Shown here: positions 1 through 56,808 of the stretch, one piece after another
Layout: the number at the start of each line of letters is the position of its first letter
Numbering within the stretch: position 1 is the first letter of the stretch
DNA from: Abditibacteriaceae bacterium
Lineage (GTDB): Bacteria; Armatimonadota; Abditibacteriia; Abditibacteriales; Abditibacteriaceae
Reading direction: 5' to 3'
Assembly: GCA_019239895.1 (NCBI GenBank)
Contig: JAFAZH010000037.1
Span: 1-64,000, forward strand
DNA length: 64,000 nucleotides
Notes under the pieces: generated by a model
The model's database searches: none
Told to the model about the DNA's origin: nothing
What the model saw: only the letters and a program-made list of their open reading frames with translations
Position numbers and translations under genes: made by a program

Positions 1-105
1 GAAATGACAAACCTCCGCGTCCGAGAAAATCTCGCGGTATACATCTTCTAAATCGGAGGGCACGAACGGGCGCAACAGAAGCCGTGCGGTGACAATTGGT
101 TGCAT
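1..105 (-). CDS. GNAT acetyltransferase, RimJ/RimL type (partial)
   Basis: Only the first 35 codons are inside the window; the gene runs off the left edge. The N-terminus contains TARLLLRPFVPSDLEDVY, the usual opening beta-strand and helix of RimJ/RimL-like GNAT acetyltransferases, which transfer an acetyl group from acetyl-CoA to an amine. It starts about 40 bp beyond the crossover end of the attC-like site at 146-209 and shares the orientation of the other cassette genes, so it is probably the next cassette of array 1. The substrate cannot be told. Confidence 0.7.
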   Translation of the reverse strand, partial: MQPIVTARLLLRPFVPSDLEDVYREIFSDAEVCHF

Positions 106-145
106 GATAAAGATTATAACGGGCACGATTAAGCTGCGCGCAGCG

Positions 146-209
146 GCCCAACGCCAAAGTCAGCCACCGCTTGGAGCGAAGCGGAAAGCAGCCGGTTGCA
201 TTGTCGGGT
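146..209 (-). other. attC-like site 1, degenerate
   Basis: On the minus strand the site ends in GTTGGGC (complement of GCCCAAC at 146-152), preceded by GGCTGACTTTGGC, the usual right-hand half of attC. The other end, ACCCGAC (203-209), is a weak match to RYYYAAC. Inner boxes pair only partly. It follows the stop codon of the CPBP gene as an attC should. This is the weakest site of the set. Confidence 0.5.
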
Positions 210-275
210 GGTGTGGCTGGTCTACGTTTTGAGCCTCCCACTGAGCCTTGCTGCTGCCTGGATGCCCATTTGCCT

Positions 276-1085
276 TCATCCGAGGATGGCATTGCGATAA
301 GCATCCATGAGAGCCTGAGCCGCTGCCGGAAAGAGCAACGTGCCGCCATTGCGCCAACAAAACGAAAGCGGAATACCGACAAGTGCGTGCATTACAACCA
401 CCGCTGGCGCGACCGTGAGCAACGCCGTCAAATTTGGAATGGGCAGGATCGGTAAATGCCATAAGCCCCAGAGCGCCGAGACAAAAAATGCTGAAGCCCA
501 AGGACGCTTGTCGCCAGTTCGATAAACATGGCTGTCCAGTGCCCCCCGAAAAACGACCTCCTCTAAGGTGAAGCACACCAAAAAATACAGATAAAATTGT
601 TTGAGCAGTGGTAGAACCTGAAAAGACGATACCGATGGAGATCGCCCCTGGGCCAGTGCCGTTATTGACATGAGGGCGCAGCCCATCAACACCGCTGTTG
701 CGAAACTCAGCACTACGGACTTGGTGATGCTATCCCATTGGAGACGACACCCGGCAAAGGCCACCAATACCGCACCGCCAAGGCAGCAGACCAACCACAA
801 GATGACTGACCAATTCCGCGTGGGAGCCAGCGTAGCAAGATCGTAAACGGGCACTATCAGGAGGCCCAGAGCCAGCATAACTCCCCGCCAACTTATCGAA
901 AAAGACTGCGCATCGCGCACCCAAAGTTTACACAGGGGTTGTTGCCGGACGAGGAGCTGAAAAACCACCACCAGGGGCACACCAAGCAGTAAGTAGTCGT
1001 TAGAGTTAAGATGGAGCAGCCCGCCCGCAGCTATCCATATTAGAGTAAAGGATGCCGCCTCGATGTAATTGCGTAACGTAGCCAT
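276..1085 (-). CDS. CPBP family intramembrane metalloprotease (cassette gene)
   Basis: 269 residues with about seven hydrophobic segments. It carries the CPBP (CAAX protease and bacteriocin-processing) signature: EEVVFR at residues 175-180, then SALWGLWH ending at His210 and a further His233 in VMHALVG. The family cleaves within membranes, and several members give immunity to bacteriocins or process prenylated proteins. An AAAGGG-like ribosome site lies about 10 bp upstream of the ATG. The gene lies between attC-like sites 2 and 1 and is followed directly by site 1, so it reads as an integron cassette. Its substrate is unknown. Confidence 0.85.
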   Translation of the reverse strand: MATLRNYIEAASFTLIWIAAGGLLHLNSNDYLLLGVPLVVVFQLLVRQQPLCKLWVRDAQSFSISWRGVMLALGLLIVPVYDLATLAPTRNWSVILWLVCCLGGAVLVAFAGCRLQWDSITKSVVLSFATAVLMGCALMSITALAQGRSPSVSSFQVLPLLKQFYLYFLVCFTLEEVVFRGALDSHVYRTGDKRPWASAFFVSALWGLWHLPILPIPNLTALLTVAPAVVVMHALVGIPLSFCWRNGGTLLFPAAAQALMDAYRNAILG

Positions 1086-1125
1086 TAGCTATACCCTTTG
1101 TGTGCCAAAAGCATCGCGTACCGCA

Positions 1126-1140
1126 GCCCAACGCCAAGCT
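1126..1140 (-). other. attC-like site 2, crossover half (split by IS110)
   Basis: GCCCAACGCCAAGCT on the plus strand is the R' half of an attC-like site. It breaks off at CT (1139-1140), where the IS110-group element begins. Joined to the segment at 2389-2452 it rebuilds a 79 bp site with complementary arms. Confidence 0.7.
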
Positions 1141-1149
1141 TGTATGTTA

Positions 1150-1320
1150 AAGAAAGAGTGCCAGTGATGCACGCGCTAAGCTCAGACTGCGAGTCTGCGA
1201 GTCTGCGGGTGAGATGAGCACCTGGCGCTCTGCTTAGTTTTGCTTGGTAGGTCGGACAGTATCCTAAGCCTCCCGCTATGGGTTAAGTTAGCATCAGTTA
1301 GCATCAGTTAGCACCGGAGA
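1150..1320 (+). ncRNA. Candidate IS110 bridge RNA
   Basis: Family knowledge: IS110-group left ends encode a structured RNA with a target-binding loop followed by a donor-binding loop. Seen here: GCTAAGCT (1175-1182) equals attC GCCAAGCT except for one change that allows a G-U pair. Next come a perfect hairpin CAGACT-GCG-AGTCTG (1183-1197) and GCGGGTGAG (1205-1213), the exact complement of CTCACCCGC present in both intact attC sites of cluster 2. Further on, ACAGTATC (1256-1263) is identical to the element's own right end (2380-2387). The order left target guide, right target guide, left donor guide is the expected one. Transcript ends are guesses, and I could not identify a right donor guide. 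Confidence 0.5.
1287..1314 (+). repeat. Tandem decamer repeat in IS110 left end
   Basis: GTTAGCATCA occurs twice head to tail and a third time in part (GTTAGCAC). It lies between the candidate donor-binding loop and the transposase gene and may form part of the RNA fold. Confidence 0.7.
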
Positions 1321-1393
1321 GCTTGCATTCACAAGGCTGACGAACCGGCAAAGCAAAACCTGATTAATCAAAAACCAGATGGGAGGTAGGCTC

Positions 1394-2371
1394 ATGTTTT
1401 TAGGCATTGATGTCAGCAAAGACTCCTTAGATGTGGCCTTGATTCAAGCCGCAGAACCGACACGTAAACCGCGTCACAAAGTCTTCGCCAATACACCGCA
1501 AGGGCATCAACAACTGCTCACTTGGCTGCACCAGTGCCAGTGTAACTCCGTCCATGTCTGCCTGGAAGCCACTGGCACCTGGGCGGACGCCATTGCCTTA
1601 GCCCTGCATCAAGCCGGGCACAGAGTATCAGTGGTCAATCCAGCCCTGATTCATGCCTTTGCCCGCAGCCAACTGCGGCGCACCAAGACCGATAAAGCCG
1701 ATGCCCACCTCATCGCTCGCTTCTGCCAGATGCACCAGCCCCCGGTATGGACGCCTCCGGCCCCTGAACTCCAAGCACTGCAAGCTTTGGTGCGGCGGCT
1801 GGAAACGCTCTTGGAGATGCACACGATGGAATCCAACCGCTTAGGTGCCGGACTCAATTGTGCTGCCGTCCAAGCTGACTTAGAAGAGCATCTGAGGGAT
1901 CTGCAAGCGCGCATCGAGAAAGTGCGCCGTCAGATTCAGGATCATCTCGACCAGCACCCTGATCTCAAAAATAAAGCCCAACTCCTGGCCAGTATTCCTG
2001 GCATTGGAGCTACCACTGCTGCGTTGCTCTTAGCGGAGTTGGGTGACATGAAGCAGTTTAGCAACGCTCGTCAGGTAGCTGCCTTTGCGGGCTTAGTGCC
2101 GCGCCTGCATGAGTCGGGCACGTCCGTGCGAGGCCGTTCTCGTCTGTCGAAAGTGGGGTCTTCCCGGCTGCGCAAAGCCTTGTATTTTCCAGCCATCACC
2201 GCCTTACGTTGGAATCCCCTGCTCAAGACCTTTGGGCAACGCTTAGCCCAACAGGGCAAAAGCATGATGGTGATTGTGGGAGCCGCGATGCGCAAACTGT
2301 TGCATCTGGCCTATGGCGTCTTGAAGTCTGGCCTACCTTTTGATCCGTATTTTGCCACCCGCACCCCTTGA
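1394..2371 (+). CDS. IS110 family transposase
   Basis: 325 residues. The N-terminal RuvC-like DEDD domain opens with FLGIDVSKDSLDVAL (first Asp at residue 6) and continues with LEATGTW and KTDKADAHLIA. The C-terminal Tnp domain carries IPGIGATTAALLLAELG and GSSRLRKALY with the serine expected to be catalytic. Start chosen at the second ATG because GGGAGG (1381-1386) lies 7 bp before it. The enzyme works with an RNA guide to excise the element as a circle and reinsert it. The frame is open and both ends are present, so it may be active. Confidence 0.92.
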   Translation: MFLGIDVSKDSLDVALIQAAEPTRKPRHKVFANTPQGHQQLLTWLHQCQCNSVHVCLEATGTWADAIALALHQAGHRVSVVNPALIHAFARSQLRRTKTDKADAHLIARFCQMHQPPVWTPPAPELQALQALVRRLETLLEMHTMESNRLGAGLNCAAVQADLEEHLRDLQARIEKVRRQIQDHLDQHPDLKNKAQLLASIPGIGATTAALLLAELGDMKQFSNARQVAAFAGLVPRLHESGTSVRGRSRLSKVGSSRLRKALYFPAITALRWNPLLKTFGQRLAQQGKSMMVIVGAAMRKLLHLAYGVLKSGLPFDPYFATRTP

Positions 2372-2388
2372 CGTTCAACACAGTATCT

Positions 2389-2452
2389 CAACGGCGCTTG
2401 GAGGCGCAGCGTAGCGGAGCCGGAAAGCGTCCGTTGCAGCGCCTGGTTGAGC
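2389..2452 (-). other. attC-like site 2, distal half (split by IS110)
   Basis: It contains CAACGGCGCTT near its left end and AAGCGTCCGTTG near its right end, complementary apart from one extra base, then GTTGAGC at 2446-2452 (RYYYAAC on the minus strand). With 1126-1140 restored, a second unpaired G appears opposite the CT core. Two unpaired bases on one arm are a hallmark of folded attC sites. It lies 25 bp beyond the stop of the HEAT-repeat gene. Confidence 0.75.
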
Positions 2453-2477
2453 CGCTGTTTATCGCTTACGGAATCTG

Positions 2478-2984
2478 TCATTCATTGCTATAGCTCAACT
2501 CTTCACGGATAAATTCACGAAGATAGTTATCTTGGGTAGTTATTATAGTCTGTCCAAGAATTTCCTTAGCCTTTTCGTCCTCAATTAAAGACAAAGCTGT
2601 AGCGGCTGCACATGGCACGTCAGGATCATTCTCTTGCAAGAGTTTACTCAGTGGCTCAATCAAATCTTTATCGGGAAAACCTGCGGCGATTTGGGCACTC
2701 CAATAACGCACACTGCGGAATGGGCTTACTAAAGCATCAAGTAAATGCGGTTTCACTTCACTGCGACTAAATTGTTCAATAACTAACTCAACCAACTGAT
2801 ATACGCCGAAGCAATCTCCCTTCCCAAAGGAGTTGAGGAATAAAGGCACACAGGCAACATCAGGAAATGACATGAAATACTTTCTTACTTCATTATACTT
2901 ATCAATTTCTGCTTGGCTGAGGTCATTATCGTCTGGCATCGGTTGATGCTGTCGTAAAAATCCAAGAGCCTCTTCCTTATCCAT
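2478..2984 (-). CDS. HEAT-repeat-like protein (cassette gene)
   Basis: 168 residues with no signal peptide or membrane segment. From about residue 45 it is a run of paired amphipathic helices. The clearest repeat units are around SPFRSVRYWSAQIAAGFPD and DPDVPCAAATALSLIED, typical of HEAT or PBS-lyase-like repeats that act as protein-binding scaffolds. An AAGGAA ribosome site precedes the ATG. It is followed by attC-like site 2 and preceded by site 3, so it is a cassette gene. AT content is higher than in the chromosomal genes around it, which fits a foreign origin. Confidence 0.75.
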   Translation of the reverse strand: MDKEEALGFLRQHQPMPDDNDLSQAEIDKYNEVRKYFMSFPDVACVPLFLNSFGKGDCFGVYQLVELVIEQFSRSEVKPHLLDALVSPFRSVRYWSAQIAAGFPDKDLIEPLSKLLQENDPDVPCAAATALSLIEDEKAKEILGQTIITTQDNYLREFIREELSYSNE

Positions 2985-3049
2985 GCTGTTCCTTATTATA
3001 TATTCTCTTGGGTTTGAGTATGATGGCTGCGATACAGTGGCGCGCAGCG

Positions 3050-3136
3050 GCCCAACGCCAAGGTCAGCCGCGCCGTAAGCCCGTAGTGAGGCACGAACGA
3101 AGGGCTGTAGGCGTCGGCTGCACCACCTGGTTGGGC
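3050..3136 (-). other. attC-like site 3 (best match)
   Basis: 87 bp. Plus strand runs from GCCCAAC (3050-3056) to GTTGGGC (3130-3136), perfect RYYYAAC and GTTRRRY ends. Inner boxes CAGCCG and CGGCTG are complementary. Aligning the two arms leaves one extra G and one extra A on the distal arm, the unpaired bases that orient attC. Both halves match the consensus behind published attC primers over about 23 bp. Orientation is minus, like the genes. Beyond the crossover it continues GCTGCGCGC, an extension shared with several other sites here. Confidence 0.8.
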
Positions 3137-3275
3137 TCGCTGTCCAGCCGTGTCGGGACCCGTAATGGGCACCTCACCATCGTGCCGCTCCTCGTGTGGC
3201 CGCGCCGCTTGGCGCGACGTCGTGTCACCAGGCTGTCATGGCTCAGTATCACCGACTTCGTCGTAACGCGCACCG
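3137..3275 (-). other. Short integron cassette without a clear gene
   Basis: 139 bp bounded by attC-like sites 3 and 4. No open frame with a credible start and ribosome site fits inside it; frames that cross it run through both attC elements and are not believable. It could be a gene-less cassette, a small RNA or promoter cassette, or a deletion remnant. Confidence 0.45.
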
Positions 3276-3372
3276 GCCCAACGCCAAGGTTCGCCGCCGC
3301 CGAAAGTCGGGGCGACGAGAGGGACCACCAAAGCGCTGGCTGTGGGCGGACGGGTGCAGCGGCTTGTTGTCC
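3276..3372 (-). other. attC-like site 4
   Basis: 97 bp. Crossover end GCCCAACGCCAAGG at 3276-3289 on the plus strand; distal end GTTGTCC (3366-3372), where only the conserved GTT triplet is kept. The distal arm GGGCGGACGGGTGCAGC has the spacing of the other sites, nine bases from CGGGTG to GTT. The inner stem has about three mismatches. It lies after the stop of the GRDP-like gene. Confidence 0.65.
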
Positions 3373-3489
3373 TTTCGGTTGGGTCCGCACTGCCAATTGC
3401 GGGTAAATGGCGTCAGGTCAGTCAATGTGGGCGCAGCCGGCGCAGAACCGCGCCGGCTGCGCCCACATTGTGAGATGGAGCGAAATTCC

Positions 3490-4038
3490 TCAAACCGAAG
3501 AGGGCAAAAGTCGCATCAACTTGTCCTCTGGAAACAGCGCAACGTCAACAAATCCCTCCAGACGCGACCCTGACTTCGGCGAGCAGCAAAGGCCAATGGT
3601 TGCATCTCTTGGAAAGAATCTCTCATCGATCTTTCCAAATATTTCCTCATGACGCTTGTACGTGTGGTTGTACATGTCCGTAACAAAGGCGACCGCCACC
3701 TTGTCTTCGAAGAGCAAGGGTATGTGATGGATGTACTGTCCAAATACCTGATTGCAGAATCCGATGTAGTCTTCGGAGTACAGCACGTGAGTATGCCAGA
3801 ACGGGTCAACTGGCAATGACATGGCCGGCGGATTTAGCGGATCCAGAATGTGGATCGCATAATATCTCTTGAGATATAGGATGCCAGTGTCCAGGTGTTT
3901 AGCATCCTTGATGCCGTGTTCTTGCGCCACTTTCTTCTTGACGAGTGAGAAATCATGAAGATCGATCATCTGCAAGGCGATGTAGTGTTGGTAGGTGATC
4001 TCCACCTTGACTGATTTTGCCAATTCTGAACTCTTCAT
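3490..4038 (-). CDS. GRDP-like (DUF1399-type) protein (cassette gene)
   Basis: 182 residues. The core VDPFWHTHVLYSEDYIGFC, followed by FGQYIHHIP, resembles the WHxH region of the glycine-rich-domain-protein-like family (DUF1399), which is found in plants and scattered bacteria and has no firm biochemical role. Start taken at ATGAAGAGT because GGAGG (4047-4051 as CCTCC) lies 8 bp upstream; a longer reading from 4128 lacks a ribosome site. It is the first cassette after head 1 and is followed by attC-like site 4. Confidence 0.7.
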   Translation of the reverse strand: MKSSELAKSVKVEITYQHYIALQMIDLHDFSLVKKKVAQEHGIKDAKHLDTGILYLKRYYAIHILDPLNPPAMSLPVDPFWHTHVLYSEDYIGFCNQVFGQYIHHIPLLFEDKVAVAFVTDMYNHTYKRHEEIFGKIDERFFPRDATIGLCCSPKSGSRLEGFVDVALFPEDKLMRLLPSSV

Positions 4039-4210
4039 TTGAGGTTCCTCCGAATCCATAGGAGTTGGCGCGTTACGAACGCCGACGCGCTGATTATACT
4101 CGAACCAAGCCATCGCGTGCAATAGCAAAACGAAGCGTCTTGGTCCTCCCTACCATTATCTGTTTATCTGTTGTTAGATCCTTTGAACTACAACCACGCC
4201 GCGCGCAGCA

Positions 4211-4400
4211 GCCCAACAATATATTATGCCGCAAAGCCGCTATTTAGCGGCATTTCTATCCTTACCGCCTGAGTATACCGCATTTTACACCCCCTGGGGC
4301 TACCCTGCAAGGCGGCTGAAGCTGCGGCATAATACGCCTATAGGCGATAATTGCCGCTCTGCGCAATTCTTGAGAGCCTGGCATGAGCATTCTCCGGTCG
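4211..4400 (-). other. Array 1 head: attI-like boundary plus conserved leader
   Basis: It starts (minus-strand reading ends) with GCCCAAC at 4211-4217, a core site with no attC arm behind it. From 4229 to 4360 it aligns with 56477-56607 at the head of array 2. The best stretch is GCAAGGCG through GATAATTGCCGCT, about 47 of 53 identical, including CTGCGGCATAAT. A shared head that ends in a core site just where the first cassette starts is what an attI region would look like. The inner palindrome CGCCTATAGGCG is intact here only. Confidence 0.5.
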
Positions 4401-4434
4401 AGTTGTCCGCGTGCTGGATGAATGACTTGACATG
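4371..4434 (+). pseudogene. Possible integron-integrase debris, array 1
   Basis: Reading away from the array, AGAGCCTGGC matches the start of the integrase fragment of array 2 (56651-56660). The same frame then gives a stop and SGRVVRVLDE, which resembles the SGxVRRHHLDE stretch of integron integrases. The following GATGAATGACTTG matches GTTGAATGACTTG downstream of the array 2 fragment. On its own this is weak; the parallel with array 2 is what supports it. Confidence 0.35.
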
Positions 4435-4495
4435 GCGCAATCGAACTTCATCACCTAACCATAAACTCCCGACAACAGTTTCTATTCAAATCAGC

Positions 4496-4577
4496 AACCA
4501 CCGATGGACACGGATGTTTTAGATGCTGGTTACTGGATGCTGGATCAGCAATCCTCGATCTTCTCTCCGTGTGCAGC
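4496..4577. repeat. Single-arm copy of the ACCACCGATG repeat family
   Basis: AACCACCGATGGACACGGAT is followed by GATGCTGG words. This is one arm of the palindromes found complete at 10750-10873 and 49648-49771; here the second arm is missing. Confidence 0.6.
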
Positions 4578-4599
4578 GCTGGTTACTGGCCGGGTGACG

Positions 4600-5694
4600 C
4601 TACCATTGCGCTTTTTCGGCGATCATCACGGCGGCGTCATCGCCGGGCACTGGCTTGGAGAAGAAGTAGCCCTGTCCATATTCGCCCGCTAAGCCGCGCA
4701 GTTGGGTCAGTTGCTCCTGGGTCTCCACGCCTTTAGCAACGACTGCCATATCATGCTGGTGCGCTAACTGAATAATGGATTGCACCATCGCCACGCCTTC
4801 TTCGCCCACTTCTTCACTGTCCAGGCAACTGACGAGGGAGCGATCCATGTTAAGGCTATTCAACGTCAAGTGTTGCAGGTAATGGCCCGCGATGCCCTCG
4901 CTGCCGAAATCGTCCACGCACACTTGCAGGCCGAGGGCGCGCAACTGGTCTACACTCGCTTCCAAAGGCTCCGGGTTCTCCACGAAGGCGCTCTCGGTCA
5001 CTTCCAGTTTCAGGTTTTCGGGGGGCAACTCGCTCTGGCGGATAATCTCTTCCAGGTGATCGGCGAAATCGGGCTGTGCCACATGCTTCTTGGACAGGTT
5101 GACGTTCATTGTAAGATGCGCCTGCTCCGGGTATTCCAACTGCCACTCCCGCATCTGGCGACACGCTTCGAGCAGCACCCAGCGGTCAAGGTGGACGATT
5201 AAGCCAGTCTCTTCGGCGAGGGGAATAAATTCGGACGGAAACGTAAAGCCGCTCTTGGCGCGTTGCCAGCGCACCAGGGCTTCAAAGCCGCTAATCTGGC
5301 CCGTGCCTAGAGCCACAATTGGCTGATAATGCAGCTTGAGGTCTTGCTGGTTGAGGCCCGTGCCCAAGATGCTGGACAGGTAGCCATCAAGCTGCCAGAT
5401 GCAACTGTCAATCTCCTGGATGGTGCGATCCAGTTGGATACGTTGCAACTCGATGGGACGAATCGCCTGCTCCAGACGCCGCCGCGCAATCGCATAATGT
5501 ACCTGGGCCGCCCGTTCCGTGGCGAGGTTGTGGTAGTTGGCGCGCATTTGGGCGCTGTTCAGCGATAATGTCTTCCTGGTCTCCAGAAATTCCTGGCGCT
5601 TGGTGCGCATCTCATTGATAACTAACTTAGTCTCTAATATCGAATCGGCCTGAACTCTTTTAATCCGCCCTGTCTCGGTATATTCAATCGGCAA
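4600..5694 (-). CDS. EAL-domain protein with degenerate active site
   Basis: 364 residues, soluble. Residues about 25-110 look like a coiled coil; an EAL domain fills the rest. Present: FEALVRW (EAL motif), NVNLS, LEVTES, VDDFG and QGYFFSKP. Changed: the catalytic lysine of the LKIDRS motif is Asn (LNMDRS), and AEGVET reads AKGVET, so an acidic residue is replaced by Lys. EAL domains hydrolyse cyclic di-GMP; these changes suggest a binding or scaffold protein instead. Whether any activity remains cannot be judged from sequence. No cyclic-di-GMP riboswitch was seen upstream. Confidence 0.88.
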   Translation of the reverse strand: MPIEYTETGRIKRVQADSILETKLVINEMRTKRQEFLETRKTLSLNSAQMRANYHNLATERAAQVHYAIARRRLEQAIRPIELQRIQLDRTIQEIDSCIWQLDGYLSSILGTGLNQQDLKLHYQPIVALGTGQISGFEALVRWQRAKSGFTFPSEFIPLAEETGLIVHLDRWVLLEACRQMREWQLEYPEQAHLTMNVNLSKKHVAQPDFADHLEEIIRQSELPPENLKLEVTESAFVENPEPLEASVDQLRALGLQVCVDDFGSEGIAGHYLQHLTLNSLNMDRSLVSCLDSEEVGEEGVAMVQSIIQLAHQHDMAVVAKGVETQEQLTQLRGLAGEYGQGYFFSKPVPGDDAAVMIAEKAQW

Positions 5695-5989
5695 TTAGCT
5701 CACCTCATCCAACCTATGTTGTCATACTCAATACGTAAAGTTGCAATAACCTCGCCTTTTATATATTCCCTATTTCGCTTGAAATTAACCATCAGTAGCC
5801 GATAATTAGCAATTATTCGCCCTATCGAGCCAGTTAGGGAGGGGCTTGTCTTTGTATGGAGACAGCGGATCACGAATGTGTGCCAGCCCGCTGAGGTCAT
5901 GACGGTATGGGAATAGTGGGATATTCTGAGGTGCGTCCTCTGAGCCATTGCGCATCCCTACGCTATTGCGCACCAAGCGGAGCCATGCT
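5695..5989. other. Divergent intergenic region, AT-rich
   Basis: About 295 bp between the EAL gene (leftward) and the HD gene (rightward). It is clearly AT-richer than its surroundings near 5755-5820 and must hold both promoters. I see no repeat or convincing short gene. Confidence 0.4.
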
Positions 5990-6619
5990 ATGACAATAGG
6001 CATGGAATCCACACCCGCCTCAGAACGCCTGGCGCAGCAGATCGCTTTTATTCTGGAGATTGACAAACTGAAAGGTGTGCTCCGGCGCACCTATCTCCTA
6101 AATGGCACCCGGCACGAGAATTCTGCCGAGCATAGCTGGCATCTGGCTCTGATGGCGATGTTGTTGGCCGAGCACGCCAATGAATCCGTAGATGTGTCCC
6201 ACGTCATTAAAATGGTCCTTGTGCACGACCTGGTGGAGATAGATGCGGGCGACACCTATTGCTATGATGCGATAGGTACCCTCGATCAAGCCGAGCGCGA
6301 AGCCCAGGCTGCCGAGCGACTCTTTGGCCTCTTACCAGCGGAGCAGGGGCTTGAATTGCACAAGCTGTGGATAGAGTTTGAAGACCGTGCCACTCCTGAA
6401 GCTCGCTTTGCGGCGGCTCTGGATCGCCTCATGCCTTTATTGCACAACTACCACACCGAGGGCCGCAGTTGGCGCGAGCATGGCATCACCCAGGATCAGG
6501 TTGTGGTGCGCAACCATCACATCGCCGACGGGTCGCAGGCACTCTGGCAGTTTGCCCAGGACTTCATTCAGCAGGCGGTGGCGCAGGGCTTCCTCCCCGC
6601 CAGCACAACTTCTGGTTGA
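5990..6619 (+). CDS. HD-domain phosphohydrolase, YfbR-like
   Basis: 209 residues. HD-domain metal ligands are visible in RHENSAEHSWHLALMA and LVHDLVEIDAGD (the HD pair), with a later Asp in AAALDRLMPLLHNY. This arrangement belongs to the HD_3 group that includes YfbR 5'-deoxynucleotidase. That enzyme removes phosphate from deoxynucleoside monophosphates. Start set at the ATG at 5990 because AGCGGAG (5976-5982) lies 7 bp before it. The exact substrate is inferred from the family only. Confidence 0.85.
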   Translation: MTIGMESTPASERLAQQIAFILEIDKLKGVLRRTYLLNGTRHENSAEHSWHLALMAMLLAEHANESVDVSHVIKMVLVHDLVEIDAGDTYCYDAIGTLDQAEREAQAAERLFGLLPAEQGLELHKLWIEFEDRATPEARFAAALDRLMPLLHNYHTEGRSWREHGITQDQVVVRNHHIADGSQALWQFAQDFIQQAVAQGFLPASTTSG

Positions 6620-6715
6620 CCGGCTGTTGTCTTATTGTCTCGCCTTTATTGTCTTATCCTTTGCTGGGTGAGGATCAGGCCATCCGACGCGCCAGGTTGA
6701 GATGCCTGGCATACT

Positions 6716-7294
6716 ATGCAGCAGATGGAAACCTACCCGAACTTTAAGCCCATCGTCATTGTATCCGATGCTTTTATGGCAACCTCGGCCACGGCAATAC
6801 GAGCCGGTTTGGAAGCCTTCGGTCTGAGAACGAGCCTTTTCCTCTGCGGCTTAGAGACTCATGTATGGGATGTCTTAGCTGGTAAATTACCCGATTGCGA
6901 CGACATCATCTTTGACTGTCACGGGGAGGAGGGCCAGTTACTCTTTGAGGTCGCCTCGCGCGACACAGCAGGATTCCAGCCCGTCAGAATCGGCCCGGCA
7001 GAAGTTCGGGCCAGAGCACAGTTGTCCCATAAGTTTGTGATTTCGTTAGCCTGCACGACCGGGACTCCTGCATTAGCCGAGGCTTTTCTGGCAGGTGGCT
7101 GCCGAGGTTTTATGGGGCCGCACGGCTGCCCGCACGTTCACGTCGGTTTCCTGTTCGTCTTGCAGTTCTACCGGCATTTACTGCAACATATCGGCAGTGG
7201 GGAAGGGAACTCACACCTTGCCGCAAGGGAGGCCCTTGAGGCGGCCCGCCACTTCGATGTTGACGCAGCCATGTTCACAATTTATGAGACATAA
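6716..7294 (+). CDS. Minimal CHAT-like (caspase-fold) protein
   Basis: 192 residues. A His-Cys pair appears in CHAT order: IIFDCHGEEG supplies the His and VISLACTTG the Cys, followed by ALAEAFLAGGCRGFMGP. This resembles the end of CHAT peptidase domains (LSACETG..LARAFLLAGA). CHAT domains are usually part of longer proteins with TPR repeats; here the domain stands alone. No ribosome site is obvious, and an ATG at 6725 is an alternative start. Protease function is inference from two motifs; it could be an inactive relative. Confidence 0.55.
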   Translation: MQQMETYPNFKPIVIVSDAFMATSATAIRAGLEAFGLRTSLFLCGLETHVWDVLAGKLPDCDDIIFDCHGEEGQLLFEVASRDTAGFQPVRIGPAEVRARAQLSHKFVISLACTTGTPALAEAFLAGGCRGFMGPHGCPHVHVGFLFVLQFYRHLLQHIGSGEGNSHLAAREALEAARHFDVDAAMFTIYET

Positions 7295-7421
7295 GCCAGC
7301 CCCAACATCTCAGCCATGCGGTGCCACTGACGCCTCCGGCTCCGTTGCACCGCGCCTGCAAACGTGGCTGACCCAGACGACCCCCATAATGCCCGCACCT
7401 CCACACTTAAAATGGAGCAGT

Positions 7422-8873
7422 TTAAAATGCAGGGGGCGCTAAGGGAAGTTGAATCTCGACCAGCAGACCGCCGCCTGCTGCGTTCACGGCGCGCACCTTA
7501 CCACCATGCAAGCGCACAGCCCGCTCGGTGATTGAAAGACCCAGGCCGACGCCACCGCTCTGGCGATCTCGCGCACCCTCAATGCGGTAGAAAGGGTCGA
7601 AGAGGCGAGTCAGAGCTTCCTCGGGCACGCCGGGGCCGCAGTCACGCACGGTGATAACAGCACGCTCTGGCTCGTCCGGTTTCTCCGTTGCTGATTCGCG
7701 GCGCAGACTGATTTCCACATCCTTTCCGGGAGGTGTATAGCGCACCGCATTGCGCACCACGTTCTCGACTGCGCTGCGCAGCAGGTTGGCGTTGCCGGGG
7801 ATAATGCACTCTTCCAGATTCACTACGCGCACCCCGCGATCTTGGCCGCTGGCCTCGAAGTCGGCATCGGAGGCAATCTCCCCCACCACATGCGCCAGGT
7901 TGACCACCTCGCCGCGCGCTTCGGCCCCGGCGGTTTCCAGGCGGGTGAGAGTCAGCAATTGGCCGATTAAAACATTCAGGCTGTCGGCTTCATGGTCAAT
8001 GCGTTCCAGGAAACCAACCGTCTCGCCCGTAGCCGTCTGCATCGCCAGGTCCAGGGCCACTTGCAGGCGAGCCAGGGGCGAACGCAATTCGTGCGAGATG
8101 TCACCCAGCAGGCGGCGTTCCGACATCAGCATACTCTCGACACGCTCGGCCATCACATCGAAATCGCGCCCCAGGTCGGCCAACTCATCACGGCGATTAC
8201 CCATTTGTGGGCCAACGCGCACCGCCAGGTTGCCTGCCGCCAGTTCGAGCGTGGCTTGCCGTAGTTTAATGGCAGGTGCCGTGAGGTAAAGCGCCAGGCC
8301 ATAGCAGACCGCGCCCAGCGTGAGGGCCACCACGAGCAGGCGCAGTAGAGCATCGGGATGGGGATGCCGCCACTCGTGGAACGGGTCGTTATGGTCATGC
8401 GGCCCACGCAGGCTTTGCATTGCGACATAGTAGCCACCACGCCGGGTTTCAATGCGGCGGGCAATCCAGGCATCGCCGTCATCTGCCGCCAGTGACGCTG
8501 TGCCCACATGGGCGGCTTCAGGTATCAGGGAGGCGGCCTTATCGGGGGCCGGTGGCCCCACCAGCAATCTTGGCACAGCCACCGGTTGCAGCGGGTCTAC
8601 AGCATAGAGTGATGCTCCGGCGCGATCTTCCGGGCCTTCGGGGTGGGGTCGCAGTGAAAAGCGCCAGGCTTCATACAGAGCCTTTTGCCCCCCGTATTCA
8701 TAAGCGACGGCGGCAGCCTGCGCCCGTGCTTCCAGGCTGTCGCCAGCCGCCCCATAAAAAAACCGGTCGAAGCCGCCGCGCTGCATGGCTAAGCCCAGCG
8801 CGAACAGCCCCGCGCCGATGAGGATTTGCGCGGCCCAGAAGCATAAAAAAATTTTGAGGAACAGGCTACGCAT
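7422..8873 (-). CDS. Sensor histidine kinase, CpxA-like
   Basis: 483 residues: one membrane segment at residues 7-30, a periplasmic region of about 140 residues, a second segment near 177-198, HAMP, then the dimerisation domain with DISHELRSPL (phospho-acceptor His261). The ATPase domain shows NVVRNAVRY, DCGPGVP and GGVGLGLSI. It follows the response regulator gene with a 3 bp gap, so the two form an operon. The pair lies beside a divergent set of secreted LTxxQ-like proteins, the layout of Cpx envelope-stress systems; that role is inferred. Confidence 0.9.
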   Translation of the reverse strand: MRSLFLKIFLCFWAAQILIGAGLFALGLAMQRGGFDRFFYGAAGDSLEARAQAAAVAYEYGGQKALYEAWRFSLRPHPEGPEDRAGASLYAVDPLQPVAVPRLLVGPPAPDKAASLIPEAAHVGTASLAADDGDAWIARRIETRRGGYYVAMQSLRGPHDHNDPFHEWRHPHPDALLRLLVVALTLGAVCYGLALYLTAPAIKLRQATLELAAGNLAVRVGPQMGNRRDELADLGRDFDVMAERVESMLMSERRLLGDISHELRSPLARLQVALDLAMQTATGETVGFLERIDHEADSLNVLIGQLLTLTRLETAGAEARGEVVNLAHVVGEIASDADFEASGQDRGVRVVNLEECIIPGNANLLRSAVENVVRNAVRYTPPGKDVEISLRRESATEKPDEPERAVITVRDCGPGVPEEALTRLFDPFYRIEGARDRQSGGVGLGLSITERAVRLHGGKVRAVNAAGGGLLVEIQLPLAPPAF

Positions 8874-8876
8874 AGC

Positions 8877-9656
8877 TTACTCGTTGGCCCCTGGCTCTGT
8901 TTCACTTTGTCCTGGTCGGGCATAGAGGTAGCCAACACCGCGCACCGCTTTGATGCGCTCGCCACCGCGTTCGTTGGGGCCAAGTTTGCGCCGCAGATTA
9001 GAAATATGCACATCAATGCTGCGGTCGTAGGGCAGGAGCGGACGGCCCAGCGCGGTTTTGGAAATCATTTCGCGGGTCACGATTTCGCCCGCTGTGCGCA
9101 ATAGCAAATCCAGTAGCTCGAACTCAGCCGTCGTCAGATCGAGTCGGGTCTTGCCCCGGTAGGCTTCACGGGTCGCGCCGTTTATTTCGAGGTCGCCGAC
9201 GCGTAGCGGTTGGAAAGGGGTGCCCGACTGATGGGACGCCTGGCTCACTTCAAGGGCGGTTTGCAACCGACGCGAAATCGCCCGCAGCCGTGCTACCAGT
9301 TCCCGTGATGAAAAGGGTTTGGGTAGATAATCGTCTGCGCCCAGTTCCAGGCCCAGCACGCGGTCTACCTCGTCGCCGCGCGCGGTCAACATCAGCACCG
9401 GCAGATGCGCCACGGCACCCCGGGCGGCGCGAATACGACGCAGCACCTCGAAGCCGCCAATGCCTGGCAACATCACATCCAGCACCACCACCGAATAGTC
9501 GCCGGTTAAAGCCTGCTGTGTCCCCGCCTCGCCGCTATGCACGGCGTGGGCGTCCATGCCTTCGCGGCGCAGGTATTCCGTGACCAGTTCGCACAACTGC
9601 ACATCGTCATCAATAATGAGCACGCGAGGCGTGCCCGCTTCCGTTGCGGTTTGCAT
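8877..9656 (-). CDS. OmpR-family response regulator, CpxR-like
   Basis: 259 residues. Receiver domain with an acidic cluster DDD at 16-18, phospho-acceptor Asp60 in VVLDVMLPG, Thr91 and Lys113 in LPKPF. The winged-helix DNA-binding domain ends with DVHISNLRRKLG and IKAVRGVGYLY. First gene of the operon with the kinase downstream. The divergent intergenic region contains GTAAA-N5-GTTAA half-sites, close to the CpxR box, suggesting autoregulation and control of the secreted-protein genes on the other side. Confidence 0.93.
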   Translation of the reverse strand: MQTATEAGTPRVLIIDDDVQLCELVTEYLRREGMDAHAVHSGEAGTQQALTGDYSVVVLDVMLPGIGGFEVLRRIRAARGAVAHLPVLMLTARGDEVDRVLGLELGADDYLPKPFSSRELVARLRAISRRLQTALEVSQASHQSGTPFQPLRVGDLEINGATREAYRGKTRLDLTTAEFELLDLLLRTAGEIVTREMISKTALGRPLLPYDRSIDVHISNLRRKLGPNERGGERIKAVRGVGYLYARPGQSETEPGANE

Positions 9657-9690
9657 AACCAGAGTTTACGTCTCACTTTGCTCCGATGGT

Positions 9691-9736
9691 GTAAACAATT
9701 GTTAAGAATTGTGCGTTGGCCTTAACAATTGCTTAC
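9691..9736. promoter_or_regulatory. Inverted operator pair, CpxR-box-like
   Basis: GTAAACAATTGTTAAG (9691-9706) and CTTAACAATTGCTTAC (9721-9736) are inverted copies, 15 of 16 identical. Each reads as GTAAR-N5-GTTAA, one base from the CpxR half-site pair. They lie in the divergent region between the response regulator and the first secreted-protein gene. A weaker related element, CTTACGGGCGCTTAACC, follows at about 9752-9768. Confidence 0.6.
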
Positions 9737-9854
9737 ATTCGGTTAGGAAAGGCTTACGGGCGCTTAACCTTTCGGCACCGCGCTACAATGAGAATAGAAG
9801 TATTGATTTGAGACGCCATAAATTAAAGCCACATCGAAAGGAGCCGCAACCGAC

Positions 9855-10748
9855 ATGAAAAGCCAGCAGAGAAGAGCTACTAACGCCCTGGTCGTGTTGA
9901 GTGTGATTGCAGGACTGTGCGCCACGAACGGCCACGCGCAGGGGCCAAAAGGTGCCGCCAAAGGCCCTGCCGGTGCCGATCACAACCGCCGACCTCCCGG
10001 CCCTGGCGGGCGAGGCTTTGGCGAACGAGGTTTTGGCGGGCCTGGATTTGGCGGGCCGGGCGGTTTTCGGCTCAATGCCAAGATGCGCCTGAGTCGCTAC
10101 TTGCATGATGTGGGTGAATTGGAAACTGGCAAGAACCAGTTGAGCAAGAGCCAGGCGAAGCAAGTTGTGCTTCTGGTGCAGCCGTGGCAGAAAAAGCCAA
10201 CCATGAGCGAAGCCGATGCGCAAGCTCTGTTGACTAAGCTCAGTGCCGTGCTGAACACGGGGCAGAAATCCGCACTTACCAAACTGGCCGCGCAAGATCG
10301 TCCTCCCGGTGGGCGCATGGGTGGCCCTGGCGGTGGCCCCGGTGGAGGGTTTGGTAGAGGATTTGGTGGCCCTGGTGGGCCGCCCCCCGATGGCCCGCCG
10401 CCCGGTGGCGGACGACGTGGTGACGGGCGACGTGGCGGCCCGCCAAACGGTCAACGGCCTGATGGCCCACCGCCTGGAGGTTTTGATGGTCGCATGGGCG
10501 GCCCCGGTATGGGTGGCCCCGGCAGAGGGCCTGGTGGTGGCCCGCCCAGTGCCAAACAGATGCAGCAAATGCGCCAGCGGATGCAGCAGATGCAGGGCTT
10601 TTTCAAGACTTTCAATCCCCTTTACCCGCCTGCTTCCTCCCCGGCGCTCAAAGCGATGCCCGCGCCCATGCGGGAAGGCGCACAACGGCGCTACCAAAAC
10701 ACCGCCGCAATAATTTCCCGGCTCAGCCACAAAGCGCAGAGCAAGTGA
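9855..10748 (+). CDS. Secreted Gly/Pro-rich protein, envelope-stress locus
   Basis: 297 residues. Sec signal peptide of about 28 residues ending in GHAQG. A Gly-rich stretch with GFGG words is followed by a helical core (LSRYLHDVGELETGKNQLSK) and a second long Gly/Pro/Asp tract (GGPPPDGPPPGG type), then a Gln/Met-rich segment. AAAGGAGCC lies about 11 bp upstream of the ATG. First of three similarly built secreted proteins in the same direction. The helical core resembles Spy/CpxP-type proteins in general form only; no family can be named safely. Confidence 0.7.
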   Translation: MKSQQRRATNALVVLSVIAGLCATNGHAQGPKGAAKGPAGADHNRRPPGPGGRGFGERGFGGPGFGGPGGFRLNAKMRLSRYLHDVGELETGKNQLSKSQAKQVVLLVQPWQKKPTMSEADAQALLTKLSAVLNTGQKSALTKLAAQDRPPGGRMGGPGGGPGGGFGRGFGGPGGPPPDGPPPGGGRRGDGRRGGPPNGQRPDGPPPGGFDGRMGGPGMGGPGRGPGGGPPSAKQMQQMRQRMQQMQGFFKTFNPLYPPASSPALKAMPAPMREGAQRRYQNTAAIISRLSHKAQSK

Positions 10749-10749
10749 T

Positions 10750-10873
10750 TTAACCACCGATGTACACAGATAAACACAGATGGAGGAGGACGGAAGATTG
10801 AGGACTTCTCATCCAGCATCGAGTAACCAGCATCCAGCATCATCCGTGTCCATCTGTGTTTATCGGTGGTTAA
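10750..10873. repeat. Intergenic palindrome, ACCACCGATG family
   Basis: Outer arms TTAACCACCGATGTACACAG and its near-complement ending CGGTGGTTAA enclose inner words GAAGATTGAGGA and CCAGCATCGAGTAACC. It fills the space between the first and second secreted-protein genes and may act as a terminator or mRNA-end hairpin. Confidence 0.85.
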
Positions 10874-10918
10874 TAATCCAGAAATTTAAGATGTAAAGAT
10901 TCAATAAGGAGATGTCAA

Positions 10919-11683
10919 ATGGCACAACAAAAATGGATGGTGGGCACAGTGGCCGTGGCGATGGGCCTCGGCTGGGTCGGCACTGCCAGTGCGCAACCGA
11001 ACCCCGGCGATGCGGGCAAGGCCGCTAATCCCCCGAACTGGCAGCAGGGGCCAGGAGGTGGGCCGGGCGGCCCTGGCGGTGGTAATCGCCCCGACTTTCG
11101 CAACATGACTCCGGCGCAACGCCAGCAGGCGATGCAGCAGATGAACACGCAACGACGCGAGCAGATGGTGCGCTTTGCCCTGGGCAATGTCGGTGTCACC
11201 AATGCCACGGTGCAAAATGCGGTCGTGGCCTATGCCAAAAATCAGGACGAAGCCCAGCAGTCGCTTCAGGAGTTAAGCAATAAGCTGGTGGAAGCGGTCA
11301 GCACTCCGGCCACACCCGACGACCAAATCGCCAAGCTGCTGGCCGACTTCCGCGCTGCCGTCGCCACGGCCCAGGAAGACCGCAAGGCTGCGCAATCGGT
11401 GCTGGATGCCAAGACGCACTATAGCCAGCAGCCGCGCCTGGCTCTCGCCCTCACCTCCCTCAACCTCATTGGCGACCAGACAGCGTTGCTCGGCACTGGC
11501 GGCAACATGGGCGGCCCAGGCAGAGGGCCAGGTGGCTTTGGCGGCCCCGGTGGCTTTGGTGGCCCCGGTGGTGGCCCCGGTGGTTTTGGCGGACGCGGTG
11601 GCCGTGGTGGATTTGGCGGCCCCGGTGGAGGTTTCGGTGGCCCCGGCGGTGGTGGGCCGGGGGGAAACGGCGCCAACAACTAA
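10919..11683 (+). CDS. Secreted Spy-like protein with Gly-rich tail
   Basis: 254 residues. Signal peptide ends near GTASAQ. After a short PGGGPGG linker comes MTPAQRQQAM, close to the LTxxQ motif of Spy/CpxP periplasmic chaperones, and a helical domain of about 120 residues. The last about 60 residues are almost only Gly, Pro, Phe and Arg (GGFGGPGG words). AAGGAG precedes the start. The helical core is paralogous to that of the next gene: compare YSQQPRLALALTSLNLIGDQ with YSKQPRLDAVLTVLGIVGNE. Confidence 0.75.
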   Translation: MAQQKWMVGTVAVAMGLGWVGTASAQPNPGDAGKAANPPNWQQGPGGGPGGPGGGNRPDFRNMTPAQRQQAMQQMNTQRREQMVRFALGNVGVTNATVQNAVVAYAKNQDEAQQSLQELSNKLVEAVSTPATPDDQIAKLLADFRAAVATAQEDRKAAQSVLDAKTHYSQQPRLALALTSLNLIGDQTALLGTGGNMGGPGRGPGGFGGPGGFGGPGGGPGGFGGRGGRGGFGGPGGGFGGPGGGGPGGNGANN

Positions 11684-11715
11684 TGACAAAATGCTTGGTT
11701 TAAAGGAGTTAACTC

Positions 11716-39730: not shown

Positions 39731-39877
39731 TAGATTTAGCCACAGCAGCACAGGAAAATTCGAGGATCGAAGATAGAGGATCGCTACTGCACTGAGAGAC
39801 TAACTGGCCTCGGCTTAGCCTTTTCAATCCTCTATCTTCGATCCTCGAATTTTCCTGTGCTGCTGTGGCTAAATCTA
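39731..39877. repeat. Palindrome with perfect 51 bp arms
   Basis: Arms 39731-39781 and 39827-39877 are exact complements over 51 bp: TAGATTTAGCCACAGCAGCA outermost, then ACAGGAAAATTCGAGGATCG and AAGATAGAGGAT. Spacer 45 bp. The inner word is shared with 28020-28146. Perfect identity over this length in non-coding DNA points to a recent event or active correction. Confidence 0.95.
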
Positions 39878-54912: not shown

Positions 54913-55022
54913 TCAAAAGTCCAACGGACTTTGCACCGCCTGGCCCGGCTTGTGGCTGACATGGATTTAAATTATGGTGGTGCTCACGTTTTTGTGTCTC
55001 AGTAGCTCCTGCACGGTGCGTG
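54913..55022 (-). pseudogene. intI: Integron-integrase C-terminal remnant, Tyr codon now stop
   Basis: In one frame: RTVQELLRHKNVSTTII, a TAA, then IHVSHKPGQAVQSPLDF and a TGA. Integron integrases and related tyrosine recombinases end TVQELLGHxDVSTTMIYTHVLN..GVxSPLD. The TAA stands exactly at the catalytic tyrosine. Homology begins at RTVQ; the sequence further upstream is unrelated and attC-like site 6 starts 62 bp away. It points left, opposite to the fragment at 56653-56808, as if one gene had been cut by an inversion. Confidence 0.75.
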
Positions 55023-55083
55023 TGGTCGGTCGCACCCCAGGCGGCGAGGTTAATCTGGCGCACCTCAAAACCACACGCAAGCG

Positions 55084-55165
55084 GCCCAACCCCAAGCTCA
55101 CCCGCCGCCGTAGCGTAGGGAGGAACGACCGGAGCGTGGGCGGTCGGGTGCAGCGCTGGTTCTCT
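55084..55165 (-). other. attC-like site 6
   Basis: Crossover end GCCCAAC (55084-55090) followed by CCCAAGCTCACCCGC; the distal arm has CGGTCGGGTGCAGC and GTTCTCT (55159-55165). CACCCG and CGGGTG pair with an extra base on the distal side. It lies 13 bp after the HNH gene stop. It contains AAGCTCACCCGC, the exact complement of the proposed IS110 right target guide, and is unoccupied. Confidence 0.72.
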
Positions 55166-55178
55166 TGCTGTTGGGCGG

Positions 55179-55709
55179 TCACAATGTCGGACTTAGTGCC
55201 TCCGCAACTTCGTTACGATCTCCTTTCATCCATGCCTCTATAAGGTGTAATCCTTTGGGCGAGAGTGATACTTTGTATCCATAAAACATCATGCTGTTCA
55301 CTGTGTCACCCTTCCATTCGCAGACCACTAAACCATTCCCGATTAAACGTGCGAATTGCAGGAGCGCATCTTGACGCACTAAAAACCTGCGATCATCCTG
55401 CATCTTATATAGGAACAACATAAGGTTAATAGTTTCTTGGTCAAATGCGAAACTGAGGCTCACCAAAACCTGTTTCCAAGCATAAATCGCTTCCTTAGGA
55501 ATGGTTCCTCTATGATAAAGAGCGTGGCAGTTTGGACAAAGAGCTAACAGGTTGGCGAGCGTGTCCCCTCCACTCTCGTTGACCTGAACGATGTGGTGCA
55601 AATCAATAGCAAGAATATTACGACAAGTGGGCACTCCACAGCGATAGTCCGACTCAATAAGTACTTGCCGCCTCACGTCATCAGGTATTTTCTGTCTACT
55701 TTTAGACAT
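55179..55709 (-). CDS. HNH endonuclease (cassette gene)
   Basis: 176 residues. N-terminal HNH domain: RCGVPTCRNILAIDLHHIV, then GGDTLANLLALCPNCHALYH, with both CxxC-type zinc ligands and the catalytic His. Residues 80-176 are a helical domain of unknown role (FLVRQDALLQFARLIGNGLVV). HNH proteins of this form are found in restriction, phage and mobile-element contexts. It lies between attC-like sites 7 and 6 with its stop next to site 6, as a cassette gene should. AT-rich compared with its neighbours. Confidence 0.88.
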   Translation of the reverse strand: MSKSRQKIPDDVRRQVLIESDYRCGVPTCRNILAIDLHHIVQVNESGGDTLANLLALCPNCHALYHRGTIPKEAIYAWKQVLVSLSFAFDQETINLMLFLYKMQDDRRFLVRQDALLQFARLIGNGLVVCEWKGDTVNSMMFYGYKVSLSPKGLHLIEAWMKGDRNEVAEALSPTL

Positions 55710-55755: not shown

Positions 55756-55853
55756 AGCTAACGCCAAGCTCACCCGCCGCGGAAGCCGGAGCGGAGCCGA
55801 GGCACGAGGCAAAGCGCAGGCTGTAGGCGGTCGGGTGCAGCACCTTGTTCTGT
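55756..55853 (-). other. attC-like site 7
   Basis: 98 bp. Crossover end AGCTAAC (55756-55762), then GCCAAGCTCACCCGCCGC; distal arm GGCGGTCGGGTGCAGC with GTTCTGT (55847-55853). CACCCG/CGGGTG pair with one extra base. The flank CAAGCTAACGCC is identical at the other end of this cassette (56468-56479). Its inner sequence (GAGGCACGAGG..GGCTGTAGGCGG) resembles that of site 3, so the sites here are a homogeneous family. Confidence 0.75.
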
Positions 55854-55888: not shown

Positions 55889-56452
55889 TTATTTTTGCCT
55901 TAGCTCAATTTTAATCTCATCAAGCGTTGTCTGTTTCATCAAGTCTGTAGCAACAAAAATGGGAGTCTTGACGCGCAGGGCCAAAGCCAGAGCATCACTG
56001 GGCCGGCTGTCAACTTCTGTTTCGATGCCGTTGCCCACCACTTTAATAGTGGAGTAAAAGGTATGCTCATCTGCCCCACGCATCACATAAACAGCTTCCA
56101 CACGTCCCCGTAAGGCTTTAATCAACTCAGCCATGAGGTCGTGGGACATAGGACGAGATGGTTTGGAGTTGTCAAGCCCAAATGCAATGCTGTAGCTTTC
56201 GAGAGCGCCAATCCAGATAGGTAAATAGCGTTCTTGGTCACGCGCCTTGAGGATGACGACCGGAGCCGTTGTTTCTCCCACCCCCTCAGCCTTAGAGGTC
56301 GCTTGATAAATTCCTTGCACAGTTGCCTCAGTGACAGCAGGCTTTGCTGTTTTGGCTTCCGTTGGAGCAGCACCAGGCTCAGCCAAAACTTTGTTGGCTG
56401 CCGCTAAACCCGCGACTGAAACCGCACCCGCTATCAAATCTCGACGTTTCAT
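55889..56452 (-). CDS. Tat-exported DUF151 (bifunctional-nuclease-like) protein (cassette gene)
   Basis: 187 residues. A twin-arginine-like leader KRRDLIAGAVSVAGLAAANK is followed by a DUF151 domain: VVILKARDQERYLPIWIGALESYSIAFGL, MSHDLMAELIKALRGRVEAVYV, EVDSRPSDALALALRVKTPIFV. DUF151 proteins are usually cytoplasmic; an export signal is unusual. GGAGG lies 6 bp before the ATG at 56452. First cassette after head 2, followed by attC-like site 7. Nuclease activity is inferred only from relatives. Confidence 0.85.
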   Translation of the reverse strand: MKRRDLIAGAVSVAGLAAANKVLAEPGAAPTEAKTAKPAVTEATVQGIYQATSKAEGVGETTAPVVILKARDQERYLPIWIGALESYSIAFGLDNSKPSRPMSHDLMAELIKALRGRVEAVYVMRGADEHTFYSTIKVVGNGIETEVDSRPSDALALALRVKTPIFVATDLMKQTTLDEIKIELRQK

Positions 56453-56469
56453 GTGCATCCTCCAAATCA

Positions 56470-56652
56470 AGCTAACGCCATTTCGCCATGATTTAACGGT
56501 ATTTGTGGATTTATCATCTGATTGTACCGCAGTTTAGGGGTCATAGCGACAACTGGCAAGGCGAGTGAGGCTGCGGCATAATCCGTCTTTAGGCGATAAT
56601 TGCCGCTGTGGGGGTCGGGGACGTCACTCTCTTATTCACTCGCTTATCTTAG
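56470..56652 (-). other. Array 2 head: attI-like boundary plus conserved leader
   Basis: It begins with AGCTAAC (56470-56476), a core site with no attC arm, just upstream of the first cassette gene. From 56477 to 56607 it aligns with the head of array 1; GCAAGGCG to GATAATTGCCGCT is the best block. Integrase debris follows immediately. This is the position and direction expected of attI plus the start of intI. Confidence 0.5.
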
Positions 56653-56808
56653 AGCCTGGCGCCGTACGAGTGGGCCTGGCAATGGGTGTTCGCGGGAGCT
56701 AAACCATCTCTTGACCCGCGTGACGGTGGGGAGATTGTACGCCAGAGTGAGCCGTTGAAGCCTGATGACTGGAGCGACTTTATGACTGTCTGCTCTCCGA
56801 TGAGTTGA
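56653..56808 (+). pseudogene. intI: Integron-integrase internal remnant
   Basis: 51 codons ending in TGA: SLAPYEWAWQWVFAG, then AKPSLDPRDGGEIVRQSEP. Integron integrases carry EWxWQWVFPSxxLSxDPRSG after their family-specific insert, so the match is specific to that group, not to tyrosine recombinases in general. The first two thirds of the gene are missing (about 50 bp remain between the head and this motif), and the frame opens with a stop. It reads away from the array, the normal intI direction. Confidence 0.7.

Follow-up and report, generated by a model that had tools for sequence, protein, structure and literature searches.

The window, as the whole 64,000-nucleotide stretch analysed here is called, covers the first 64 kb of contig JAFAZH010000037.1 (C17) in the draft genome of an Abditibacteriaceae bacterium of the phylum Armatimonadota (GCA_019239895.1); labels such as C4, C5, C8, C16 and C17 denote contigs of this same genome. 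Its left end carries a run of integron gene cassettes with their attC recombination sites, an attI-like region with a putative promoter of an integron-integrase gene (intI) and no intI behind it, and an insertion sequence (IS) of the IS110 family lodged in one of the attC sites (Table 1). Counted leftwards from the attI-like region on the minus strand, the cassettes hold a gene whose protein (3490–4128) has no Pfam match at E <= 1, no gene at all, a HEAT-repeat protein gene, a CPBP protease gene and a GNAT acetyltransferase gene. An earlier examination of the letters without database searches, hereafter the sequence-only reading, had proposed CPBP, HEAT, GNAT and GRDP-like genes plus one gene-less cassette; Pfam bears out the CPBP and HEAT calls and, weakly, on 35 aa, the GNAT call, the GRDP-like call has no Pfam support, and the gene-less cassette is present, ending in the attC at 3050. 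The same reading placed the array at 1–4440; the cluster is real, its right end is the attI-like region at 4199–4358, and further attC sites lie outside it, at 55084–55165 and 55756–55853 and, as a solitary site, at 7313–7385.

The attC sites were identified with two covariance models, R1, built from 27 attC sites beside intI genes of other bacteria, and R2, built from 40 sites elsewhere in the same genome, with the window excluded; the E-values of such models are rough. R2 recovered all four elements that had been proposed, at 146, 1126/2389, 3050 and 3276, in a single orientation, each at an E-value of about 2e-9 or lower, and all four lie on one strand, with the window plus strand corresponding to the attC bottom strand. 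Thus, within 1–4440, where two model-recognized sites define a cluster of attC sites lacking integron-integrases (CALIN), four are found with R2 and two to three with R1. The sequence-only reading had also described ends fitting RYYYAAC/GTTRRRY, which is true of the 3050 site, the site returned at a score of >=8 by a scan for a strict descriptor (RYYYAAC and GTTRRRY around paired arms with one bulge) that gave 0 hits in 20 shuffled windows, and is not true of the sites at 146 and 3276, whose boxes are degenerate. In window plus-strand orientation, the 3050 site reads GCCCAAC-GCCAA-GGT-CAGCCG ... T-CGGCTG-C-ACC-ACCTG-GTTGGGC. Seven core bases pair, the spacers are 5 nt long, there are two paired arms, and two bases are extrahelical; known integrons show this layout. 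In the attC stem, 88% of cells pair, and the covariation score is 0.296, against 0.122 in shuffles and 0.071 or less after sliding. The sites show the marks of an attC hairpin: R and L boxes that pair, spacers, covariation and, on one arm, extrahelical bases. Single-strand folding of the sites at 146 and 3276 was uninformative.

In addition, the placement of the sites follows that of cassettes. In fetched arrays, 42 of 66 sites follow the end of an open reading frame (ORF) on the predicted top strand, compared with 4 of 66 when the opposite strand is taken and 8.6% of random positions; the test counted ORFs of at least 100 aa ending −10 to +60 bp from the site and replaced an initial version with ORFs of at least 40 aa, which was too permissive (61% at random). 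Orientation is nearly uniform inside each cluster. The claim that each site stands right after a gene stop does not hold for the 3050 site, which closes the gene-less cassette. The two outcomes named in advance as contrary, an absence of attC covariance matches and a scatter of copies far from gene 3' ends and in mixed orientation, did not occur.

The attI core GTTGGGC lies on the minus strand from 4199 onward. The attI-like regions of the genome share a block in which the core GCCCAAC-AATATATTATGCCGC is accompanied by a predicted sigma-70-like promoter directed toward intI, with TTGCAA (or a variant) and CATAAT separated by 17 bp. The position of the 4199 region and its homology to an intI-adjacent region suggest that it is an attI; the sequence-only reading mentions neither this region nor a targeted insertion at the split attC. 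No significant intI match was found in window positions 1–12000, nor was any found at the locus in a whole-genome protein search. An intI adjoining attI, as in a complete integron, is present on contig C5 only. There, C5:661–1629 is the sole intact integron-integrase gene found in the genome (TIGR02249, 440 bits against a cut-off of 265), and it adjoins its own attI; its product has the tyrosine-recombinase residues and is up to 63% identical to IntIs of Pseudomonadota. In a tree that included 80 IntIs of other phyla, this IntI falls apart from those and together with 8 of the 10 further IntI sequences from its own phylum, with weak support (79/86).

The third attC is split. The sequence-only reading had rebuilt one site from 1126 and 2389, and this proved correct, as an IS110 element occupies 1141–2388 and its joined flanks restore a normal attC. 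The transposase and that of IS621 share 47% identity, and the element is IS621-like in having the DEDD and Transposase_20 domains and an upstream non-coding region. A second copy, C4:265–1498, is 78% identical, has the same ends and the same orientation, and splits another attC at the same base. In both attC-inserted copies the IS right end (2373–2379 in the window) is GTTCAAC, an R'-type core, which is not found at the corresponding place in IS621 or in relatives from genomes G199 and G022. It is rather unlikely that the element is an attC specialist whose split site is rebuilt as a hybrid attC, so that IntI could recombine there; if it were, IntI could carry the IS or part cassettes at the hybrid site, and an RNA-guided transposon would be living inside the integron cycle. 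A scan of IMG/VR with the IS transposase returned no relative.

In IS621, the left guide of the bridge RNA includes the CT core and the right guide pairs over 4 bp with the target (PMC11208160). This rule was applied to IS621, the window copy, the C4 copy and the relative in genome G199. For IS621 it yields the guide ATCGGGCCT for the target ATCAGGCCT, plus GTAG; for the C4 copy, the predicted guide CGCCCAGCT, an exact match, plus TGAG; and for the G199 relative, whose target is apparently not attC, the predicted guide GCCTGCCCT for GCCCGCCCT, plus GTAG. In all four elements, the left guide lies 64–82 nt before the donor guide ACAGTATC. In the window and C4 copies, the predicted left and right guides pair with the occupied target, core included; in the window element they belong to a bridge RNA predicted in the upstream non-coding region. 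Since this pairing falls on attC around the CT core, guidance by RNA to attC is the most likely cause of the insertion, ahead of a random event. Because the predicted guide RNA matches attC, the array looks as though a second mobile element had selected it as its target. Among exact genome matches to CGCYMAGCTCA, 13 of 29 lie inside attCs listed by R2; the guides are therefore strongly enriched for attC, not exclusive to it. As a separate observation, the window copy contains an extra GCGAGTCT-type repeat at 1184–1206, inside the predicted target-binding loop, which is not present in the C4 copy.

The element shares with IS621 (PMC11208160) the CT core, the donor end ACAGTATCT, the upstream non-coding region and the order and spacing of guides; unlike IS621, its predicted target guides spell attC and not a repetitive extragenic palindromic (REP) sequence, and its right end carries GTTCAAC. 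Similarly, it resembles the IS1111-attC group (ISKpn4, ISPst6, ISPa25; PMC11187229) in its fixed position in attC and in the guides within its non-coding region. In that group, the non-coding region lies downstream of the transposase gene and the top-strand guide comes first (PMC11187229), whereas in the window element the non-coding region is upstream (238 vs. 17 nt) and it is the bottom-strand guide that leads, which is the IS110 arrangement; membership of the IS1111-attC group was thus rejected.

Taken together, window positions 1–4358 very probably belong to a chromosomal integron, of which they form the attI-proximal end; its integrase gene is missing, and an IS621-like IS110 element hit it later. 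Its cassettes each end in an attC able to form a bottom-strand hairpin with two extrahelical bases. The integron at the left end of the window is real and partly decayed, with the putative attI kept and the integrase gene lost; intI is gone, one attC is split, and two attCs have degraded boxes. The CALIN label is locally correct, and the proposal of an integrase-less array running past the left edge holds, with attC model matches, sites placed at gene 3' ends and nearly uniform orientation. The cassettes would have entered at attI one by one through IntI; intI would then have been lost at this locus and the sites would have decayed, while the IntI from C5 could still act in trans on the array; the third attC would later have been struck by the IS element, guided by RNA with attC as its landing site. 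Several points weigh against this account: attI function is read solely from position and homology; the sites at 146 and 3276 score weakly with the foreign-trained model R1; the IS is known from attCs in just two copies; of the 29 exact guide-motif matches in the genome, 16 fall outside listed attCs; the IS non-coding region does not fold more stably than shuffles of it; and the draft assembly is broken at repeated cassettes.

Table 1. Integron-related features of the window, with coordinates, strand and supporting evidence.
Feature	Position	Strand	Evidence
GNAT acetyltransferase gene of cassette 5, truncated at contig end to its first 35 codons	1..105	-	PF13302 E 7e-4 on 35 aa
attC of CPBP cassette, outer box degraded	146..214	+	R2 44.8 bits; R1 17.1 bits (E 0.03; 146–212)
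CPBP/Rce1-like protease gene, cassette 4	276..1085	-	PF02517 E 6e-10
R' core, spacer and first L' bases of split attC	1126..1140	+	Sequence GCCCAACGCCAAGCT; joined to 2389–2452 gives a regular attC
IS110 element (IS621-like) inserted in attC	1141..2388	+	Two Pfam IS110 domains
Predicted bridge-RNA left target guide CGCTAAGCT	1174..1182	+	Pairs with target CGCCAAGCT, one G-U
Predicted right target guide TGAG	1210..1213	+	One of two TGAG copies (1210 or 1215); pairs with target CTCA
Predicted left donor guide ACAGTATC	1256..1263	+	Matches IS right end ACAGTATCT, as in IS621
IS110 transposase (DEDD + Transposase_20)	1379..2371	+	PF01548 E 2e-26, PF02371 E 8e-30
Hybrid attC: IS-derived core GTTCAAC and remaining attC arms	2373..2452	+	R2 75.8 bits, R1 33.6 bits
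Remainder of split attC (HEAT cassette)	2389..2452	+	Joins 1126–1140
HEAT-repeat protein gene, cassette 3	2478..2984	-	PF13646 E 3e-12
attC of gene-less cassette, best window site	3050..3136	+	R1 51.4 bits (E 6e-11), R2 73.9 bits
attC of first cassette, outer box degraded	3276..3372	+	R2 40.5 bits; R1 10.6 bits (3276–3384; E 1.5, alone not significant)
Gene without assigned function, cassette 1	3490..4128	-	ORF
attI-like region and intI promoter, no intI behind	4199..4358	+	76% identical to C5:445–665 beside intact intI, E 4e-27; six-copy alignment
Predicted sigma-70-like promoter (CTGCAA, 17 bp, CATAAT) toward expected intI position	4305..4333	+	Block common to six copies
Solitary attC-like site, 19 bp past stop of gene 6716–7294 (+)	7313..7385	-	R2 31.7 bits
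intI C-terminal fragment with stop codon, cluster 2	54919..55023	-	69% identical over 35 aa, E 8e-7
attC, cluster 2	55084..55165	+	R2 50.0 bits; R1 23.6 bits (55084–55176)
HNH endonuclease gene, cluster 2 cassette	55179..55709	-	PF01844 E 3e-7
attC, cluster 2	55756..55853	+	R2 59.1 bits; R1 24.6 bits (55757–55853)
Bifunctional nuclease-domain gene, cluster 2 cassette	55889..56470	-	PF02577 E 2e-33
Partial attI/intI promoter region, cluster 2	56521..56620	+	82% identical to C5 region, E 1e-20
intI fragment, residues 216–248 (integron-integrase-specific stretch), cluster 2	56659..56766	+	tblastn E 1.6e-4 in searched stretches

The sequence-only reading had called the array fossil. The term fits the platform in the window and is not supported for the genome, which retains the intact intI on C5, and it is only partly right for the array itself because an integrase able to act in trans exists in the genome. 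The array may be no fossil at all, intI having been lost locally while this array and the other attI-like regions are kept functional in trans by the IntI that C5 encodes, which we regard as possible, if on balance not probable. The intact C5 IntI with its tyrosine-recombinase residues, the attI core conserved at 4199 and identical cassette ends at different loci speak for service in trans; however, two of the four attCs carry degraded boxes and another is interrupted, the identical ends could be ordinary duplications, and the attC beside a shared gene differs where comparison is possible.

It is quite unlikely that the IS landed in attC by chance with a coincidental guide match. Only two copies are at hand, and the window match, which includes a G-U pair, was reached in 43 of 5000 shuffled non-coding regions; but the C4 match is exact and was reached in 0 of 5000, the two copies occupy different attCs and share the insertion base and the orientation, and the rule also fits IS621 and a relative with a non-attC target.

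The left edge of the window is an assembly break, since its base 1 is the first base of C17. Arrays break contigs in this draft, and draft genomes are reported to inflate CALIN counts (PMC9024848), both of which would favor a view of the missing integrase as an assembly artefact, in which the intI at the start of C5 would come from a complete integron that had been split up. This is very unlikely, as the attI-like region of the window differs by 24% from that of C5, C17 continues without a break for 84 kb in the direction where intI would be expected, and the C5 intI has its own attI beside it. Finally, dispersed intergenic palindromic repeats (REP-like, or like miniature inverted-repeat transposable elements) merely resembling attC are extremely improbable here, for although at least 100 copies occur over many contigs of one genome, some of them solitary, a model trained on attCs of other phyla matches these sites, their arms, spacers and two extrahelical bases fit attC, clusters are nearly uniform in orientation with placement past gene stops on one strand only, and attI and intI are present in the same genome.

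With regard to the contig ends, window bases 1–147 are identical to one end of contig C16, and the pairs C17 left/C16 right, C8 right/C28 right and C5 left/C16 left each share exactly 147 identical bases. Beyond these, each pair diverges at or near a cassette boundary, which corresponds to assembly breaks inside duplicated cassettes. After the gene end that they have in common, C8 and C28 carry different attCs, which is not expected from simple cassette movement.

Compared with a CALIN or sedentary chromosomal integron as defined by IntegronFinder (PMC9024848), the window locus agrees in having at least two attCs in one orientation, cassettes with and without genes, and no intI; unlike a CALIN, it keeps a remnant of attI and the intI promoter, and it lies in a genome with at least six attI-like regions, more than 100 attC-like sites and one intact intI. 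Such a layout (at least 100 attC-like sites, six attI-like regions, one intact integrase gene) allows intI loss and service in trans to be studied directly. The lists of integron-bearing phyla consulted (PMC8618304, PMC9024848, PMC9668308) do not name Armatimonadota, and a literature search for integrons in Armatimonadetes/Armatimonadota gave nothing relevant. Meanwhile, an IS targeting attC would join two recombination systems, a guide-RNA transposon with predicted guides spelling the integron's own recombination site; it would belong to the IS110/IS621 branch, separate from the known IS1111-attC elements, and would make it possible to test, in a natural setting, how guides follow a target that is repeated and varies slowly. 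No description of IS110-type attC insertion was found in the literature, of which the older IS part was only partly covered, so that this is no proof of novelty.

A second cluster lies at 54.9–56.8 kb (Table 1). As neither its attI-like region nor that at 4199–4358 has an intact intI, the window holds two decayed integrons. Across the genome, where all census counts are lower bounds because each search scored 150 candidates, there are at least 100 attC-like sites (R2 lists at least 115 at E <= 1, most far below) and at least six attI-like regions, one of which, on C5, has an intact intI; the region on C8 is followed by intI C-terminal fragments, and at three of the six no intI was detected nearby. 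Within the phylum, an IntI above the cut-off was found in 10 of 291 genomes, and attC sites were found in 8 of 16 chosen genomes, including 42 sites in one member of the same family.

The genome also contains at least 34 small membrane-protein genes, mostly of 33–107 aa, which have differing bodies and a common end, ...HSVTVEVD*. They occur on C48:3427–23258, in tandem among attCs, and on C4, C5, C12, C34, C37, C40, C45, C52, C54 and C57, and their end consists of the same 27 bases in 17 copies. A strict GTTRRRY core lies at most 75 nt past the stop in 10 of 34 (6% at random), and RYYYAAC overlaps the gene end in 19. These genes may be a second type of cassette or mark a hot spot of cassette insertion. 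A 26-bp remnant of the IS left end is found at C32:47609–47634, beside a copy of the HSVTVEV tail. In a search of the whole window against Rfam, the only matches were mir-16-like, at 39734–39874 on both strands; this is surely a palindrome and not a bacterial microRNA.

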